Below are positions 1,363 through 44,908 of a DNA stretch of 45,569 bases, one piece after another. The position numbers were made by a program, and so were the translations under genes. The DNA comes from a virus: IMG/VR virus record IMGVR_UViG_3300046810_000402, positions 1 through 45,569 of that record; one strand, written 5' to 3'. The notes below the pieces were generated by a model. It had not been told where the DNA came from, did no database searches, and saw only the letters and a program-made list of their open reading frames with translations. The stretch's first letter is position 1. Each line of letters starts with the position of its first letter.

Positions 1363-1544
1363 GCGTCGTATCTCCTTATGCTGTAAATAACCCTGCTTTC
1401 CTGCTTGTTCCAGACGCCGAGAGGGATCTGACCGCGCGCTCGCCGGGCGCGGAGTCCGTGGACGGTGGTTCCGAGAATCTCGGCCATCTGCTCCTCCGAA
1501 ACCTTGTCCAGTTCATATGTGGCGGTGTTTTCTGCTGGGGTCAT
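1203..1544 (-). CDS. xis: Excisionase-like DNA-binding protein
   Basis: This 113-residue basic protein has an excisionase/MerR-like winged-helix signature in its first 60 residues: VSEEQMAEILGTTVHGLRAR, then a basic wing and YDAWLESQW. It would bend att DNA and steer the integrase towards excision. A strong AAGGAGG ribosome site precedes ATG 1544. The last 160 bp overlap the start of int in another frame, and the int ribosome site lies inside this gene, so the two are probably translationally coupled. The region beyond about residue 65 looks less like a folded domain and may simply be run-on sequence. Confidence 0.8.
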   Translation of the reverse strand: MTPAENTATYELDKVSEEQMAEILGTTVHGLRARRARGQIPLGVWNKQESRVIYSIRRYDAWLESQWICPQEWKSSAIQSASASPGTACARAKRSPIPRHKKGSQLHPDFAIR

Positions 1545-2434
1545 GCTGCCTCCTTGTCATTCTTCCCGGTGCAGCAAGTCGAATGCTGCAGCTGCCACTC
1601 GTGGAACTTGCCCATTGCCAAGGGCTTTAAGTCGGTCCAGCCGGTGGGCCACCCCATCAGCCACTCGACCCACGTCGGGTTCAGGTGGCCATGGTCGGAA
1701 GCCATGACGGCATGGTCCAGTCGGTCCCGGGCGCGGCTCGCTCCGGATCTGCGGGTCAGTGCGTTGGGCGAGGATCCTTTCGACATGCTCGCGACCGGTG
1801 TCGGCCAAGGGTGAGCGATCGAGGAGGATCGACGGCGACGGTGGGCTGGCCGCGTTTGTGCTGTCGACCATTGCTTCGCCGCACTGCTCAGGCCCCATCC
1901 CGCGTTCTTGCTGCTGCCAGGCTGGTTGTGGTTCCCGTGGACGGTGGGTGTAGGCCACAAGCCAGATTCGGTTGCGTTTGTGTGGGGCGCCGCATTCTGC
2001 CGCTGAAAGACAACGCCAGCGTGCGTCATACCCCAGGCGGGTAAGGTCACCGATGACCACGGCAAGGCCTCTTCCCACAAGCAGCGGTGAGTTCTCCAGC
2101 AGCACCCAGCCGGGTCGTACTTCACCGATGATTCGTGCCATTTCTCGCCACAGACCGGAGCGGCTTCCGTCGATGCCGGCACCAGCTCCTGCAGCTGAGA
2201 TGTCCTGGCAAGGAAACCCGCCCGATACCAGGTCAACAAGGCCGCGCCATGGTCGGCCGTCAAAACTGCGCACGTCAGACCAAATCGGGAAAGCTGGGAG
2301 GGCTCTATCGTTTTGTCGTTGCGCGAGAACCTGTGCGGCGTAGGCATCACGCTCAACGGCGCAAACGGTCCGCCAACCGAGCAGGTGCCCTCCGAGAATT
2401 CCGCCACCAGTTCCTGCGAAAAGAGCCAGCTCAT
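1541..2434 (-). CDS. Candidate overprinted protein in the +1 frame of the methyltransferase gene
   Basis: A full-length open frame of 297 codons runs inside the methyltransferase gene, starting 4 bases later at ATG 2434. It shares the same AAGGAGG, at 8-base spacing, which is arguably better than for the GTG. Its product starts MSWLFSQELVAEFS and contains HRCLWEEALPWSSVTLP, SGLWPTPTV and WVEWLMGWPTGWTDLKPL. From memory these strings recur in proteins annotated in other phages and enterobacterial or Pseudomonas genomes, often loosely called DNA methyltransferase. It could be a true overprinted gene, or a family that exists only because the frame under conserved C5-MTase motifs is annotated repeatedly. 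No function can be assigned. Confidence 0.4.
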   Translation of the reverse strand: MSWLFSQELVAEFSEGTCSVGGPFAPLSVMPTPHRFSRNDKTIEPSQLSRFGLTCAVLTADHGAALLTWYRAGFLARTSQLQELVPASTEAAPVCGEKWHESSVKYDPAGCCWRTHRCLWEEALPWSSVTLPAWGMTHAGVVFQRQNAAPHTNATESGLWPTPTVHGNHNQPGSSKNAGWGLSSAAKQWSTAQTRPAHRRRRSSSIAHPWPTPVASMSKGSSPNALTRRSGASRARDRLDHAVMASDHGHLNPTWVEWLMGWPTGWTDLKPLAMGKFHEWQLQHSTCCTGKNDKEAA

Positions 2435-2438
2435 TCAC
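1557..2438 (-). CDS. DNA C5-cytosine methyltransferase
   Basis: This 293-residue enzyme would transfer a methyl group from S-adenosylmethionine to C5 of cytosine. C5-MTase motifs are in order: motif I LFAGTGGGILGG near the N-terminus, motif IV GGFPCQDIS with the catalytic Cys, motif VI ENSP, motif VIII ECGAPHKRNRIW, and motif X ALGNGQVP near the end. The target-recognition stretch (about 165-245) is short. The start is GTG, preceded by AAGGAGG, and it ends just before the xis ribosome site. No partner restriction enzyme is visible, so protection from host restriction is the likely use. A second complete frame overlaps almost the entire gene. Confidence 0.92.
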   Translation of the reverse strand: MNELALFAGTGGGILGGHLLGWRTVCAVERDAYAAQVLAQRQNDRALPAFPIWSDVRSFDGRPWRGLVDLVSGGFPCQDISAAGAGAGIDGSRSGLWREMARIIGEVRPGWVLLENSPLLVGRGLAVVIGDLTRLGYDARWRCLSAAECGAPHKRNRIWLVAYTHRPREPQPAWQQQERGMGPEQCGEAMVDSTNAASPPSPSILLDRSPLADTGREHVERILAQRTDPQIRSEPRPGPTGPCRHGFRPWPPEPDVGRVADGVAHRLDRLKALGNGQVPRVAAAAFDLLHREE

Positions 2439-3942
2439 TTGGCCTCCTTGCGTACGCTTGACATCGCATACCAGGCAAACCGCTTACAGCCGATAGACTT
2501 GCCCCGGAAAGCGCTGCACTCTGAGACGCAACGAACTGTACGAGGGCGCTGCTGTGAAAGTGACGAAACTTCCGCCGAGCATGGCCGTTGCCAGCATCTG
2601 GATTATCTGGGGCTTTTTGGGAACCGGAGTGGTCGGTTGGGCACTGTTTGTCGTGCTGGAGGCTTTTGATTCGAAGAGGGACGCGGCGGCTTGGGTGCAG
2701 GCCGTGGGCTCCGTACTCGCGATCATTGCTGCGATTGCAGTGGCGAACGAAAGCAACAGAAGAGCGGCACAGGTAGCTCGTCGAGCGGAGAGCCAGCTTT
2801 TGGATAAGCTGACTTCTGTGGCCGCCTACGTCGCTTCGATTCCTCAGAATGCCTACACCGAGTTGCGGCATGGCTCCAGCGATAGACGTACGGTTGAGAG
2901 ATTTGAAGTCTCCCTGAGGGACTGCGATTACCTCCTCAAAGAAATTCCTTTTAGTCAAATTCCTGGAGCCGAAGCAGCGATAGCCTGGCTTGAACTCAGA
3001 GGAGCAGTGCAGGATGTCCTGCAGGATGTCAGAACCGTGAAGAGTACCGCGCAAGGCCAGTTGGAACTTCGCGTCTTTGTTGACATGAAGCTTGCAGCGA
3101 GTCGCGCCACCAACGCTTATTATCGGTTCACAAAGGCAGTCGCTCGCTAACCGTTCGTTACCGAGACGCTCATACCCCTGAGCAGGCTGCGCGGGCGGGC
3201 AAGTCTTAGCGTTCAGCGTTACCTCATTTGTCGCTGCCCGGCGCAGCTTTTCATGGGGTATACGCGCATCGGCAGGGGCGCTTGCAGTTTCAGTAATGCC
3301 TGCTGCGTTGCAGCAGAGGCTCTCTATTTTCTGTGCGGCGACGTCGATGGCGTTGCGGAACAAAGCGGTCGGCTTGCGGCGTATTTCACGCTCGATCAGG
3401 TCGCCCGCTTTCTTCCGATGATCGCTACCGAGTTGGTCCATCAGCCGCTGGAAATAGTTATCGCGTGCTTCTTGAATGCCCCACGGCCGTATGGTGCGAC
3501 TCAGCGGCTCGACGCCTTTCAGAGGGTCCGGTGTTGCCGAAGTCGAGGGCATCAAGTCACGGTATTCCGTGGCCGTGACGATCTTGTCGATGTGGTGGAT
3601 GCAATCCGGCAAGACCGAGTCGAGCCAGAAGCGCTTGCAGACACTCAGCCAGATCCTGTGCTCGACGCTCTCGTACATGGGCATCACGTGCCCCAGGGGC
3701 CACACCATCTCGCCGAAATACGCCTTCGTCGCATGGCGAAGCAGGGCCGTGAGCTTGTGCTCATCGGGGGCCAGGTCAGCGACGATGCAGCTGTGTTGCG
3801 CGATGCTGTAGAACTTGCGGGTGTGACCGCCGTGGCGGCAGATCTGGCTGAGCGCATGGGCGATATCACGAGGGTCGATCTGGTTCTCGTCGGGGGCTAA
3901 CAAGTCAACGGTCTTGCCTAGGTAGGTCAGGATCTGCGTCAT
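2431..3942 (-). CDS. YfbR-like HD-domain protein with degenerate active site and run-on C-terminus
   Basis: The first ~190 residues match phage YfbR-like HD phosphohydrolases (dNMP 5'-nucleotidases): IDPRDIAHALSQICRHGGHTRKFYSIAQHS, then the helix that normally carries the metal-binding His-Asp. Here it reads LLRHATKAY instead of the usual LLHDATEAY, so both HD residues are changed and the enzyme is probably inactive. The frame stays open for 503 codons, but the second half lies antisense to the gene at 2554-3150 and looks non-protein-like. The true protein probably ended near residue 190-260, and its stop was lost by insertion of that gene. Its ATG overlaps the stop of the upstream gene (ATGA). 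Confidence 0.6.
   Translation of the reverse strand: MTQILTYLGKTVDLLAPDENQIDPRDIAHALSQICRHGGHTRKFYSIAQHSCIVADLAPDEHKLTALLRHATKAYFGEMVWPLGHVMPMYESVEHRIWLSVCKRFWLDSVLPDCIHHIDKIVTATEYRDLMPSTSATPDPLKGVEPLSRTIRPWGIQEARDNYFQRLMDQLGSDHRKKAGDLIEREIRRKPTALFRNAIDVAAQKIESLCCNAAGITETASAPADARIPHEKLRRAATNEVTLNAKTCPPAQPAQGYERLGNERLASDCLCEPIISVGGATRCKLHVNKDAKFQLALRGTLHGSDILQDILHCSSEFKPGYRCFGSRNLTKRNFFEEVIAVPQGDFKSLNRTSIAGAMPQLGVGILRNRSDVGGHRSQLIQKLALRSTSYLCRSSVAFVRHCNRSNDREYGAHGLHPSRRVPLRIKSLQHDKQCPTDHSGSQKAPDNPDAGNGHARRKFRHFHSSALVQFVASQSAALSGASLSAVSGLPGMRCQAYARRPSE
2435..2548 (-). pseudogene. 3' remnant of a small cysteine-containing phage protein
   Basis: A short frame without a clear start reads CVSECSAFRGKSIGCKRF then AWYAMSSVRKEAK and stops at TGA 2437-2435, overlapping the GTG start of the methyltransferase (GTGA). 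Such stop/start overlap is typical of neighbouring phage genes, and the spaced cysteines look like a small metal-binding protein. Its 5' part appears lost where the rightward gene at 2554-3150 begins, suggesting that gene was inserted here. The identification rests only on this context. Confidence 0.3.
2554..3150 (+). CDS. Small membrane protein, likely moron (rightward, against the operon)
   Basis: This 198-residue protein starts at GTG 2554 with a weak GAGGG ribosome site. Two hydrophobic segments lie near the N-terminus (about 11-35, rich in W/I/G/V, and about 45-65, AVGSVLAIIAAIAVA). A helical, charged cytoplasmic region follows. It is the only rightward gene among leftward early genes, which is typical of a self-contained moron. 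A superinfection-exclusion or host-modifying role would fit, but no family is recognised. It lies antisense to the open C-terminal extension of the HD-domain frame, and both are unlikely to be real over this stretch. Confidence 0.6.
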   Translation: MKVTKLPPSMAVASIWIIWGFLGTGVVGWALFVVLEAFDSKRDAAAWVQAVGSVLAIIAAIAVANESNRRAAQVARRAESQLLDKLTSVAAYVASIPQNAYTELRHGSSDRRTVERFEVSLRDCDYLLKEIPFSQIPGAEAAIAWLELRGAVQDVLQDVRTVKSTAQGQLELRVFVDMKLAASRATNAYYRFTKAVAR

Positions 3943-4398: not shown

Positions 4399-4725
4399 TT
4401 ACTGGGCGGATTCGGTGATGCTGGTTTCTTCGTCGCTCATTGCCTCGTCCGCCTTGTAAGCGCGTACGTCTATCAGTGCGGCGATGTGGCGGATGTGCAC
4501 GAATTTGGGCGCCTTGCGGCTGGTATCCAGAGTGGTGACCGGGAGTTGGATGCGGCCGCTTTCAATCTCCGCCCAGAACGAGCGCTCGTTGAGGTTGCGG
4601 AAGTACTGGGCCCGGAGCTTCTCCAGCGGGATAAGGACATCGCCGAACGTGCGGTACAGCAGTTCGACGGTGACCGCTTCGGGTGCCGGGATGAGTCGTA
4701 GTGGGGATTGACCAGGTGCGTCCAT
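4399..4725 (-). CDS. Pyocin activator PrtN-like transcription factor
   Basis: The 108-residue product has the layout of PrtN proteins: LLYRTFGDVLIPLEKLRAQYF, a short basic stretch, IQLPVTTLDTSRKAPKFVHI and a closing IAALIDVRA helix. In P. aeruginosa PrtN binds P-boxes and switches on pyocin genes after DNA damage. PrtN homologues are widespread in Pseudomonas prophage early regions, often as a repressor-like factor near int/xis. The link is suggestive here because the prophage's tail module resembles R-type pyocins. It lies in the leftward operon between small phage genes. Confidence 0.75.
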   Translation of the reverse strand: MDAPGQSPLRLIPAPEAVTVELLYRTFGDVLIPLEKLRAQYFRNLNERSFWAEIESGRIQLPVTTLDTSRKAPKFVHIRHIAALIDVRAYKADEAMSDEETSITESAQ

Positions 4726-6133: not shown

Positions 6134-7507
6134 GTGGCGATTCGGAGATCAATTCAGGGGTTCAGGGCTCAGAGTAAGAGTTTCGCAAATATTCGTTTGG
6201 AAAGAGTTGTTTTCTTCGGTTTCCAGTCAGCAAACCGTATGGCCGAGGTTGTTTTTTCGTCCGAAGCTGCTTCTGTGATCTACGGCGATAATGGTTGTGG
6301 AAAAACCACATTTTTGAAGCTTATACACGCCCTGTTAAAACATGACTCGGCAATTCTCCAAAAAGAAGGAGTGAAGCAAGCCATTGTCGAATATAGAGTA
6401 GATGACGGAGATAAAAAGACAGTAGTTGTTAACAGTTCGCGTACCGAGTACGCGTATGTTTCGGAATCTGCGGAGTCCGAGATGATAATTCATAAAGATG
6501 AATATGACTGGGGTCCTCTAAGCGACTGCGAACTGTCTTCTTCCCGATCCTTGTCGATGGGAGTCGAAAGAGGAACAACCACTTTACCAGCTCGATTGGA
6601 AGTGGATGATATTATTAGGTATATGTCCAATCCCGCTTTTCGCGATATTGCTCGAAATAGGGCTGTAGAGTTTGCCGAGGGTCTAGTCATTCATCTTAGA
6701 AACTTTCAGTCTGTAAGGGCAAGAAGTTCGAGAGAGGGCTTCGATCCTGAAGAGGCTCATCCTTACCTCCAAAACATCAAGATAAGTAATATCGAAGGAT
6801 TGTTGCTTGAGCGATATCGAGTCGCTAAAAGTATCGCAACGAGCAAAATTCAAAATGCTCTGTTTGATACCTTGGCTGTTGCTATCGAGCAAAAGGAACA
6901 GGGAGCCCCGGAGCTACGCGCTATTCCCAAAGATTTTGGGGAACTCATTCTTAGAAGTAAAGAGCGCATAATCGAAGCTTTAAAGGATGGGACTGAAAAT
7001 AAACTAAAAAGCCGTGTTATTAGCTTTTTGGTTGGATTCAAGTCGGCCGATGAAGTTGGTCGTCTTATGGAGAATGATATTCTTTGTCAGCTCATCGTGA
7101 ATATGACGACTGAGTTGCAGATAGAACGACAATTACTAAGCGCTATTAACATTTTTGTAGATACGTTTAACAGTTTTCTTGGTGAAGGGAAAGAGCTCGT
7201 TGTCACGAAGGACGAGTTGTTCATCCTCGTGGAGGGCGATCATCACTCAATCGACGTGCTTTCAAGCGGTGAGCGACATATTTTTACATTCCTTGCGCTG
7301 ATCGTAGTTTCTGGGCGCACTCGCGATTTCATCATTATTGACGAACCTGAAATATCCCTTAATGTGCTATGGCAGAGATCGCTCCTCTCACTGCTAAAGA
7401 CAATCGCTCCAGATACGCAAATTATTGTCGCTTCCCACAGCCCAGCAATTGCGCACGAGAACCCTGCAAGTCTGGTCGAATTGAAACCCAGGAAGAATGC
7501 TCAATGA
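6134..7507 (+). CDS. AriA-like AAA ATPase of a PARIS-like defence pair
   Basis: The 457-residue protein is an SMC/ABC-type AAA ATPase. Walker A GDNGCGKTTF is at about 51-60, a long helical insertion spans about 150-340, the signature LSSGERH follows at about 377, then Walker B FIIIDEPEIS and the switch histidine ASHSPAI near the end. The start is GTG 6134 with GGGAG eight bases upstream. It overlaps the next gene by ATGA. In PARIS, AriA is the sensor ATPase that holds the toxic effector AriB until a phage anti-restriction protein is detected. Gene order, sizes and partner match that system. Base composition is distinctly AT-rich compared with the phage, suggesting recent acquisition. Assignment to PARIS rather than another ATPase/TOPRIM system is inferred. 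Confidence 0.7.
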   Translation: MAIRRSIQGFRAQSKSFANIRLERVVFFGFQSANRMAEVVFSSEAASVIYGDNGCGKTTFLKLIHALLKHDSAILQKEGVKQAIVEYRVDDGDKKTVVVNSSRTEYAYVSESAESEMIIHKDEYDWGPLSDCELSSSRSLSMGVERGTTTLPARLEVDDIIRYMSNPAFRDIARNRAVEFAEGLVIHLRNFQSVRARSSREGFDPEEAHPYLQNIKISNIEGLLLERYRVAKSIATSKIQNALFDTLAVAIEQKEQGAPELRAIPKDFGELILRSKERIIEALKDGTENKLKSRVISFLVGFKSADEVGRLMENDILCQLIVNMTTELQIERQLLSAINIFVDTFNSFLGEGKELVVTKDELFILVEGDHHSIDVLSSGERHIFTFLALIVVSGRTRDFIIIDEPEISLNVLWQRSLLSLLKTIAPDTQIIVASHSPAIAHENPASLVELKPRKNAQ

Positions 7508-8439
7508 CAGGTATGTCAATGATGGTGCCCGATAGTCTTTCATTCAAAGCTATCGAATTACTTAACATGGCAATAATGACAAAGGTCCCCGTCTTAATTG
7601 TAGAAGGGAGGAATGATGTACCGATATTTCAGAGAATATCGCAAAGTATTGGCAAGAGATGTGACGTCTTTGCAAGCGAAAATATCAGTTCTCCAGAAGG
7701 TGGATGCTCTGGAGTTTTAAAGAATATTGCTACCATTAGAGAGTTTTCCACAACTGTTGACATACGCCCTTATGTTTTGGGTATTGTTGATAGGGATGCT
7801 AGGGTTTATCGCGACGAGCAAGTATTCGATGATTCTCTGCTGATGCTGAATTATTATTCGATAGAAAGTCATTTTGTCAGTCAGGAGGCGATTCGGTTCA
7901 TAGTGGAAAAAACTACCAGTGCTACTGGTGCTCTCCTTACTGACGTTAACTGTCAGACTTTATTTGACGAGATCAAGACAGATCTTGATTCGTTGTACTA
8001 CTGTTCACTCGAGGCTCTCAGAAAAGCTTGTGAGGCTGATTATGACGCGGAGCTAACTTACGGCGAAAAGATAAGGTCCATAATCAAACAAGGGAAACCA
8101 GAGAGAGTGTCATGCAAGTCGGCTGAACTCGATGAGTTTGCGAACCGTCTTGGTGTAACTAGGTCGCTTGAGGATCTGTTGCGTATTTGCAAGGGAAAAT
8201 GGATATTTCAGTATTTCGTGGATTCATTAATTACAAAGCTGAATGGTTTGAAGAGTATGTGCAAGGACAATATTCTTGCTCAATGTCAGTACTGCATACA
8301 CGAAGCGTTCCATAATTGCTTGTACTCTTTGACGGCAAATTTTACGAATTCTCAATTGGAGCAGTTATTGTTGCAAGACACGGAGCAAGAAAAGCTTGGT
8401 TATATTAAAAGTCGGATTGCCGAGCTCGCGCAGCGTTGA
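7504..8439 (+). CDS. AriB-like DUF4435/TOPRIM effector
   Basis: The 311-residue product has a TOPRIM-type core. VPVLIVEGRNDVPIF (about 29-43) supplies the E-G-x-x-D box and YVLGIVDRDARVY supplies the acidic D-x-D pair. NYYSIESHFVS matches the 'E-I-E-S/N' helix typical of DUF4435. The rest is helical with several cysteines. ATG 7504 overlaps the ATPase stop, indicating coupled expression. In PARIS the DUF4435 protein is a toxic nuclease cleaving host tRNA after release by AriA; this activity is known for family members and only inferred here. It is AT-rich like its partner. Confidence 0.7.
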   Translation: MTGMSMMVPDSLSFKAIELLNMAIMTKVPVLIVEGRNDVPIFQRISQSIGKRCDVFASENISSPEGGCSGVLKNIATIREFSTTVDIRPYVLGIVDRDARVYRDEQVFDDSLLMLNYYSIESHFVSQEAIRFIVEKTTSATGALLTDVNCQTLFDEIKTDLDSLYYCSLEALRKACEADYDAELTYGEKIRSIIKQGKPERVSCKSAELDEFANRLGVTRSLEDLLRICKGKWIFQYFVDSLITKLNGLKSMCKDNILAQCQYCIHEAFHNCLYSLTANFTNSQLEQLLLQDTEQEKLGYIKSRIAELAQR

Positions 8440-43354: not shown

Positions 43355-44263
43355 TTATGGCAAGTACCCAGATCGATCCTTCAGAGACTGAGCCACTCCG
43401 GCATAGCCGGGAAATATCCGTCCTGCTGTGTATCCTATCTTTGACAGAAATTTGCGAAGTCGCGGAGCTTGGCTTGCCGGCAATTTAAGCTTTGTTAGTA
43501 TGTTGGCATCCCCGATTGTTGAGCTTTTAGAAAAGTGAGTTTTAAGTAAATCATCCAGTGGGGTTCTGTCAATTCGAGTGTCGTTATTAAGATGTGAGTA
43601 CGAGAGAAAGTTTTTTATGTTTCTTTCCCAGTGGGTGAAAAGACCTGACTGCGCCGCAATATTCGGATTCCCGGAATAGTGAGGGTGTATAAATCTTAAG
43701 TTGGATTTATGGACGTGATCTTGTAATGTTATGTAGTCTTTATTTAGGCACCATAATGACAGGTTTCCATTGTGTAAGCCTCCTGTAGACGAAAAAAATG
43801 CAGCAATGTATGGGTTATAGCTCCAATCTAGGAGGCGAGTAGGAAGTCCATAATGCTGCGCAAGAGCGGCGACTTCAAGAAGTTCTTCAGTAATCCATCC
43901 GCCAGTGTATTCGACCATGGAGTAATCCATAGTTGACGCGAGTTGACGCCTGATCGAAGATGAAGTAGGTACCTGCATTCCTTGTGCGTCCGCAAGTCTG
44001 TAAAAGTCGCGAATGGTCCGAAATTCGGCCATCACAGAAATGCTTTCGTCATCGATCCATTCTGAATGAACAGTAGCTCCGGCTAGTGCATGTAGCTCTT
44101 CAGTCTTTTCCGCCCGCAGTGCAACAGGTAAAAGTTTGAATGTGTCATCTGAGTGACCGCGAAATATATATCCTTCAAGGTTGGTTGTGGCAGACCAAGG
44201 TGTTATTGCTTGTAAAAAATCTTCTGCGAGCTCGAACGAAAATTCTTGGTAAAACTTATCCAT
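43355..44263 (-). CDS. FRG-domain protein (candidate defence effector)
   Basis: The 302-residue protein carries the FRG domain: GYIFRGHSDDTFKLLPVALR (residues 32-51), AALAQHYGLPTRLLDWSYNP and YIAAFFSS, with NPNIAAQSGLFTHW later. The motif F-R-G names the family; FRG proteins occur widely in phages and defence islands and their biochemistry is poorly known. Start taken as ATG 44263; ATG 44299 adds 12 residues. No strong ribosome site is visible for either. AT-rich like the HEPN pair and in the same orientation. Confidence 0.75.
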   Translation of the reverse strand: MDKFYQEFSFELAEDFLQAITPWSATTNLEGYIFRGHSDDTFKLLPVALRAEKTEELHALAGATVHSEWIDDESISVMAEFRTIRDFYRLADAQGMQVPTSSSIRRQLASTMDYSMVEYTGGWITEELLEVAALAQHYGLPTRLLDWSYNPYIAAFFSSTGGLHNGNLSLWCLNKDYITLQDHVHKSNLRFIHPHYSGNPNIAAQSGLFTHWERNIKNFLSYSHLNNDTRIDRTPLDDLLKTHFSKSSTIGDANILTKLKLPASQAPRLRKFLSKIGYTAGRIFPGYAGVAQSLKDRSGYLP

Positions 44264-44908
44264 TATCAAATCCGTTGATGGTGGGAGTAGTGGTGGCATG
44301 AACGATATACGATTGCGTATAGAATGTTAATTCTTACGCAGTTAAAATCCTAGAAATTTCGATGCTGTAGCCATGCTTATAGGATCGGTTGCGCGCCGCT
44401 TTGAAACCAGCCGATAGCTGAATTTTGCTAACGCGCAGTGTTGGCCTTCCCCGCAGCGGGCTCACGGGTAAAGTATGGTACTGCAATGCGCATATGAGAC
44501 GCCGAGTCAATTAGATGGGGTGAACTACTCCAGTCCAGCCCCAGGTAGGTCAAGCATATCCGAGGTACTCGCTCAAGGCTGTGAGTCAGACGTTGAGCCC
44601 ATGCAAAAAGGGGGGATACTGCTGAAAACCGTTTCCGCGCGTGAAAACTCGCTCACTGAATCGCATGGGCTCTGTGTCAGAAGTGAAACGGTGCCTGCGA
44701 ATCCGGAAACTCTGTAACCTTTTGATCTAGCTTGATTTAGTCGTCGGATTGTACATCCGTTGAATCCAGAATGAGTCAGACTGTTCATTCGTGGGAAGCG
44801 TTGCAGCGACAAAACTTGAAGGCTTTGGAAAATCTGAAAAGCTACCGCAGGCAGCTTGCTGACGCTTTATAGGAATGGGGGGCACCAGCATATTATTCAG
44901 ACACCCGC
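44264..44908. other. Gene-free right end of prophage
   Basis: No convincing gene. It holds an inverted pair GAGCCCATGC (44595-44604) / GCATGGGCTC (44663-44672) and a 33-codon frame at 44771-44872 (MSQTVHSWEALQRQNLKALE) with helical character but no ribosome site, probably a relic. The leftward FRG promoter should lie near 44300-44340. Confidence 0.4.

Follow-up and report, generated by a model that had tools for sequence, protein, structure and literature searches.

Overprinted reading frames at a phage locus probably encode two subunits of one C5-cytosine methyltransferase

The window analysed here is an entire IMG/VR virus record of 45,569 bases. On its minus strand it carries two long reading frames, A and B, which overlap by 878 bp (2434-1557) with B offset by +1 relative to A (Table 1). 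An earlier note on this DNA had described same-strand frames with that offset and about 880 bp in common, served by one ribosome site with GGAGG 4 nt before a GTG and 8 nt before an ATG, and both descriptions were confirmed, the Shine-Dalgarno sequence lying at 2447-2443. The strings that the note quoted from the second product, LPWSSVTLP and SGLWPTPTV among them, are present in B. The region of the double start reads GGAGGCCAAGTGAATGAG. An integrase gene is found near the pair at 169-1362, and no restriction enzyme partner adjoining the pair was noticed within the window. Upstream of the methyltransferase there is a 503-aa ORF (2431-3942, minus strand) with no Pfam match. Its TGA stop overlaps the ATG of B (ATGA), an arrangement that would allow translational coupling to B.

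Table 1. Features of the A/B locus, in positions of the window
Feature	Position	Strand	Content or basis
Frame A (alpha)	1557..2438	-	Putative C5-cytosine methyltransferase subunit; GTG start, 293 aa, motifs I-VIII and X
Frame B (beta)	1541..2434	-	Putative overprinted subunit; ATG start, 297 aa, target-recognition region and motif IX
Shared Shine-Dalgarno GGAGG	2443..2447	-	Sequence; 4 nt before the GTG of A, 8 nt before the ATG of B
Double start GTGAATG	2432..2438	-	Sequence; GTG of A and ATG of B, 4 nt apart
Motif I of A (FAGTGG)	2403..2420	-	Translation
Motif IV of A, catalytic cysteine (GGFPCQ)	2205..2222	-	Translation
Motif VIII region of A (GAPHKRNRIWLVA)	1953..1991	-	Translation
Target-recognition region (TRD)	1685..1963	-	Coded by B (WPTP repeats); in A an unconserved linker predicted to be disordered
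Motif IX of B (LNPTWVEWLMGWPTGW)	1637..1684	-	Pattern in 130/148 B, 0/148 A
Motif X of A (ALGNGQVP)	1602..1625	-	Pattern in 148/148 A, 0/148 B

The product of A matches phrog_363 (4e-62) and PF00145 (E=5e-32), the latter match being limited to residues 5-176. It has motifs I, IV (PCQ), VI (EN) and VIII of a C5-methyltransferase, the catalytic fold and also motif X, but its polypeptide lacks the TRD and motif IX, both of which are found in B. The claim of an intact enzyme with all key motifs in this frame therefore did not survive, since A is without motif IX here and in every one of the 148 relatives compared, which are the loci with the same kind of N-terminus. PCQ is present in all 148 A proteins versus a single B protein. 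An AF2 model of A, built on 53 sequences, is confident over most of residues 1-175, which make up the large domain, and again in the motif X helix (block mean up to 91). The pLDDT is below 50 over residues 185-230 and patchily low to about 266, so disorder is predicted where the TRD would be expected. The model aligns with HhaI (2uyc) at Z 20.4 over 191 of 327 residues, and the part of HhaI left without a counterpart in the model is the small domain. Six relatives (L106, L129, L135, L160, L166 and L168) have an in-frame stop in A with B intact. These stops could be decay or sequencing error, or they may represent an A whose motif X is lost.

Motif IX of B has the consensus LNPxWVEWLMGWPxGWTDL, in which we take LNPxWVEWLMGWPxGW to be similar to motif IX of HhaI (LHPRECARVMGYPDSY); the strict pattern is absent from 18 of the 148 B proteins. 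The N-terminal peptide of B is MSWLFSQELVAEF, and some 150 extra residues at this end, with the conserved motifs SRFGMT, WKT and WGMM, have no counterpart in the methyltransferase frame of single-chain enzymes. The length of beta among the relatives is 228-354 aa. B matches phrog_1008 (2.2e-21), as do all 65 members of set A1. Searches with B in Pfam, NCBIfam, PDB and PADLOC gave nothing convincing, and no Pfam or NCBIfam model was matched. An AF2 model of B alone reached a pLDDT of 56, and a structure search of pdb_via with this model returned no match with a Z of at least 2. Such a poor model of the lone protein might fit a subunit that folds only with its partner.

Single-chain C5-methyltransferases of actinophages, for example that of Mycobacterium phage Geralt (L015), have the same catalytic domain, LPTP-repeat TRD and MMGxP motif IX as the A/B pair, but they are encoded in one reading frame instead of two and motif X lies further from motif IX. 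Most of the actinophage relatives (L015, L178-L205) carry motifs I, IV, VI and VIII, the LPTP repeats, MMGxP (motif IX) and motif X in one ORF. In a HMMER profile built from 16 of these enzymes (406 positions), A aligns with positions 3-227 and 370-403 and B with positions 240-365 (E-values for B down to 7e-14), so that each frame supplies a different part of the enzyme. The motif VIII region is approximately the last part of A to be aligned before the gap. The noise floor was high when B was compared with single-chain enzymes using hhalign, and the HMMER result is therefore the one relied on. The in-frame C-terminus of the Geralt enzyme is also matched by phrog_1008. In L184, L190 and L191 the motifs are split over two frames; in these three and in L175 the frames switch near motif VIII and the second frame has motifs IX and X. 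These four loci are intermediate forms. The single-chain enzymes also have a shorter +1 open frame over motifs IV-VIII (for instance L199:2318-2893 and L205:2596-3237), which in L178-L205 resembles the middle of B with E-values down to 6e-18. It is perhaps a remnant of an overprinted ancestor, or partly a product of chance at about 67% G+C.

A tblastn search with B gave 77 phage records and 5 plasmids, with hosts as diverse as Acinetobacter, Leptospira, Microcystis, Paenibacillus and Pseudomonas. Of the loci fetched, 97 were found through B. Because the tblastn search favours B, a second set of 80 viral loci was collected with A peptides only, and B is open in these as well. In total, 148 loci share the same type of N-terminus, and in each of them the open B frame covers 85% or more of A. 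When the synonymous codons of A were shuffled within each gene in 92 loci with less than 80% identity, 378 stops were expected in B and none was observed. In the N half alone the expectation was 219, again with none observed, whereas the other same-strand frame had 1488 stops against 1187 expected. Some of the tested loci have a GC3 below 0.45. The window by itself is only modestly unlikely (3.0 stops expected in B, none seen, p about 0.017), and it is thus the family and not the window that decides. Many stops among the relatives, which the earlier note had named as evidence against a second gene, are essentially absent, and its suggestion of widespread overprinting is supported. In 80 genome loci there was no B protein wholly free of the methyltransferase frame; each has frame A underneath, in some cases interrupted by a point stop or a frameshift. 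Homologues outside the overlap, whose lack the note would also have held against B, exist solely as in-frame C-termini of single-chain enzymes, in that the LPTP and motif IX domain of the actinophage proteins sits in a single methyltransferase frame.

The two frames are arranged so that position 3 of A is position 2 of B, while position 1 of A is position 3, the wobble position, of B. In 34 independent pairs of close relatives the differences in motifs I-VIII are distributed over A positions 1/2/3 as.28/.12/.60, as in a gene whose reading frame is A. The stretch from motif VIII to motif IX has.52/.23/.24, as in a gene whose reading frame is B, and the wobble position of B dominates the changes in 32 of 33 pairs (sign p=8e-9). 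Here selection acts on B, and A is the shadow frame. From IX to X (.50/.12/.38) both frames are held. The control values were.22/.17/.61 for flanking genes and.22/.20/.58 for the same TRD-IX domain of the single-chain enzymes in their own frame. Four-fold degenerate sites of A in motifs I-VIII change at a rate of 0.013 opposite conserved B residues and of 0.234 opposite variable ones (Spearman -0.43, p=4e-6). This comparison is not fully independent because the conservation of B was measured on the same family, but the pairs used are close and the profile is a deep one. Around motif IX these sites are nearly frozen (rate 0.014). Both frames are under selection, that on B being weaker in its N half than in its C half, and part of the similarity among B proteins is passive inheritance from the conservation of A.

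The double start takes the form ATGAATGAG, GTGAATGAG or TTGAATGAG in 122 of the 148 loci. The start codons of A and B are 4 nt apart in 126 loci, 112 of which have a Shine-Dalgarno-like motif at a median spacing of 4 nt from A and 8 nt from B, and B starts with ATG in 143 of the 148 relatives. Experiments in Escherichia coli have shown that closely spaced start codons in different frames can both be used, with two overlapping frames being translated (PMC9841429). Both frames are annotated in the K1ind2 record (L006:1195-1992), with ORF28 ('Mte8-like') inside ORF29, and in Paenibacillus phage Leyra (L002:1501-2205) as gp61 and gp62; in both annotations B begins inside A and not at the start of A.

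Taken together, A and B are very probably two subunits of one heterodimeric C5-methyltransferase, encoded by overprinted alpha and beta genes. Since the products appear to be two halves of one enzyme, B is, on the sequence evidence, a real and widespread gene and not an annotation mistake. Alpha would provide the large domain (motifs I-VIII), responsible for SAM binding and catalysis, together with the motif X helix, and beta would provide the small domain, that is the target-recognition region with its WPTP repeats and motif IX, the N-terminal part of beta being overprinted on motifs I-VIII of alpha. Ribosomes at one Shine-Dalgarno sequence would begin translation at two start codons that lie 4 nt apart in different frames (GTG-A-ATG), which would give both subunits from the same mRNA in related amounts, and alpha and beta would then assemble into an active enzyme. 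In the phage or prophage this enzyme would most likely modify the phage's own DNA against host restriction. The translation of B, the formation of a heterodimer, its activity, stoichiometry, target sequence and role are all part of what we infer. Somewhat speculatively, the family might go further, with one Shine-Dalgarno sequence and two starts giving both subunits and with the N-terminal part of beta invented de novo on the alpha motifs and having a function of its own. Assembly, or keeping a lone alpha inactive, are tentative candidates for that function.

The earlier note had weighed widespread overprinting against a protein family that is an annotation shadow of C5-methyltransferases. It was right about the former, but it took the methyltransferase for complete and missed that B most likely holds the missing part of the enzyme. 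A shadow, meaning an open but untranslated frame caused by codon bias on a normal C5-methyltransferase, would agree with the modest p value of the window alone, with the long spurious frames that are common at 60% G+C and with the lack of a Pfam or NCBIfam match for B. It would not account for the complete lack of stops in 92 diverse loci, some of low GC3, for the dominance of B wobble changes between motifs VIII and IX, or for the homology of the C half of B to the TRD and motif IX of single-chain enzymes when A has no motif IX. The synonymous shuffles and the codon-position changes rule it out, leaving it a barely conceivable explanation, and between motifs VIII and IX the shadow is in fact the methyltransferase frame.

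The single-chain order of motifs I-VIII, TRD, IX and X corresponds to A, then B, then A, and might instead suggest programmed frameshifting, in which the ribosome switches from A to B behind motif VIII for the TRD and motif IX and possibly goes back to A for motif X. The four loci in which the frames switch near motif VIII would agree with this. However, B keeps its own ATG at a fixed place, its N half stays open although frameshifting would not need it, two shifts would be required to reach motif X, and the characterised M.EcoHK31I consists of two polypeptides. The conserved start and the open N half in particular argue against frameshifting as the main route, and we regard it as unlikely. 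It is even less probable that A works alone and that B is an independent overprinted protein, such as a regulator or an anti-restriction factor, which merely resembles a TRD. The conserved N-terminal motifs of B that are absent from the methyltransferase frame of single-chain enzymes, and a model without a match to a known fold, would be expected of such a protein, but B contains the motif IX and TRD that A is without, and its match to the single-chain enzyme covers exactly the part that A does not have.

The heterodimer proposed for A and B has counterparts among characterised enzymes. In M.EcoHK31I the small gene reportedly overlaps the large gene in a different frame. This two-polypeptide C5-methyltransferase recognises YGGCCR (Lee, Kam and Shaw 1995, as described in PMC3404938) and, according to PMC3404938, motifs I-VIII, X and the predicted TRD are on the larger subunit, motif IX alone is on the smaller polypeptide, and both are needed for activity. 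The large polypeptide with motifs I-VIII and X and the location of motif IX on the second one only are like A and B, whereas the predicted TRD is in the larger subunit and not, as the codon-position test and the profile match place it in the A/B family, in beta. Further differences are that beta in the A/B family extends across the whole alpha gene and that its two frames share a ribosome site. A and B are, unlike M.EcoHK31I, phage or prophage genes, and the two systems are likened by their descriptions. The location of the TRD in B sets the pair apart as a variant, and not a member, of the M.EcoHK31I kind. M.AquI is likewise split near the TRD into two polypeptides that form one enzyme, but its small subunit has motifs IX and X (PMC3404938), whereas motif X stays in alpha in the A/B pair and was never found in B in the 148 loci. 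The four intermediate loci, whose second frame has motifs IX and X, appear more similar to M.AquI.

A literature search for overlapping phage C5-methyltransferase genes found no description of such a pair. The ShiLan element of actinophage methylases is not such a case but an out-of-frame HNH insertion (PMC11855218). Both phrog_363, matched by A, and phrog_1008, matched by B, are labelled 'DNA methyltransferase', and the labels are silent on the complementary parts coming from the same DNA. Because gene callers generally retain one frame, many recorded phage 'DNA cytosine methyltransferases' probably represent half of an enzyme, the other half being missing or listed as 'hypothetical protein'. 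In Pseudomonas phage phPA-G (L004) and Vibrio phage 1.236.O (L011) only B is annotated. If the proposal is true, a clone of A by itself would be expected to yield inactive protein. The family would offer a clear and testable example of one ribosome site with two out-of-frame starts giving the two subunits of an enzyme, and the natural series of single-chain, split and overprinted forms might be useful for studying the evolution of same-strand overlaps.

Other genes in the record include a low-G+C (43%) two-gene cassette at 6134-8439 on the plus strand, which matches AriA (AAA ATPase, 1.7e-25) and AriB (7.5e-11) and, from these matches, appears to be a PARIS-like anti-phage defence system carried in the phage. 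As listed, its two ORFs have about 140 nt in common. A further low-G+C stretch, close to the opposite end of the record, encodes a 314-aa protein (43355-44299, minus strand) that matches the PADLOC candidate defence family PDC-S15 (4.6e-33). A homologue of the pyocin activator PrtN (PF11112, 1e-29) is encoded at 4399-4725 on the minus strand, in the early region of the phage.
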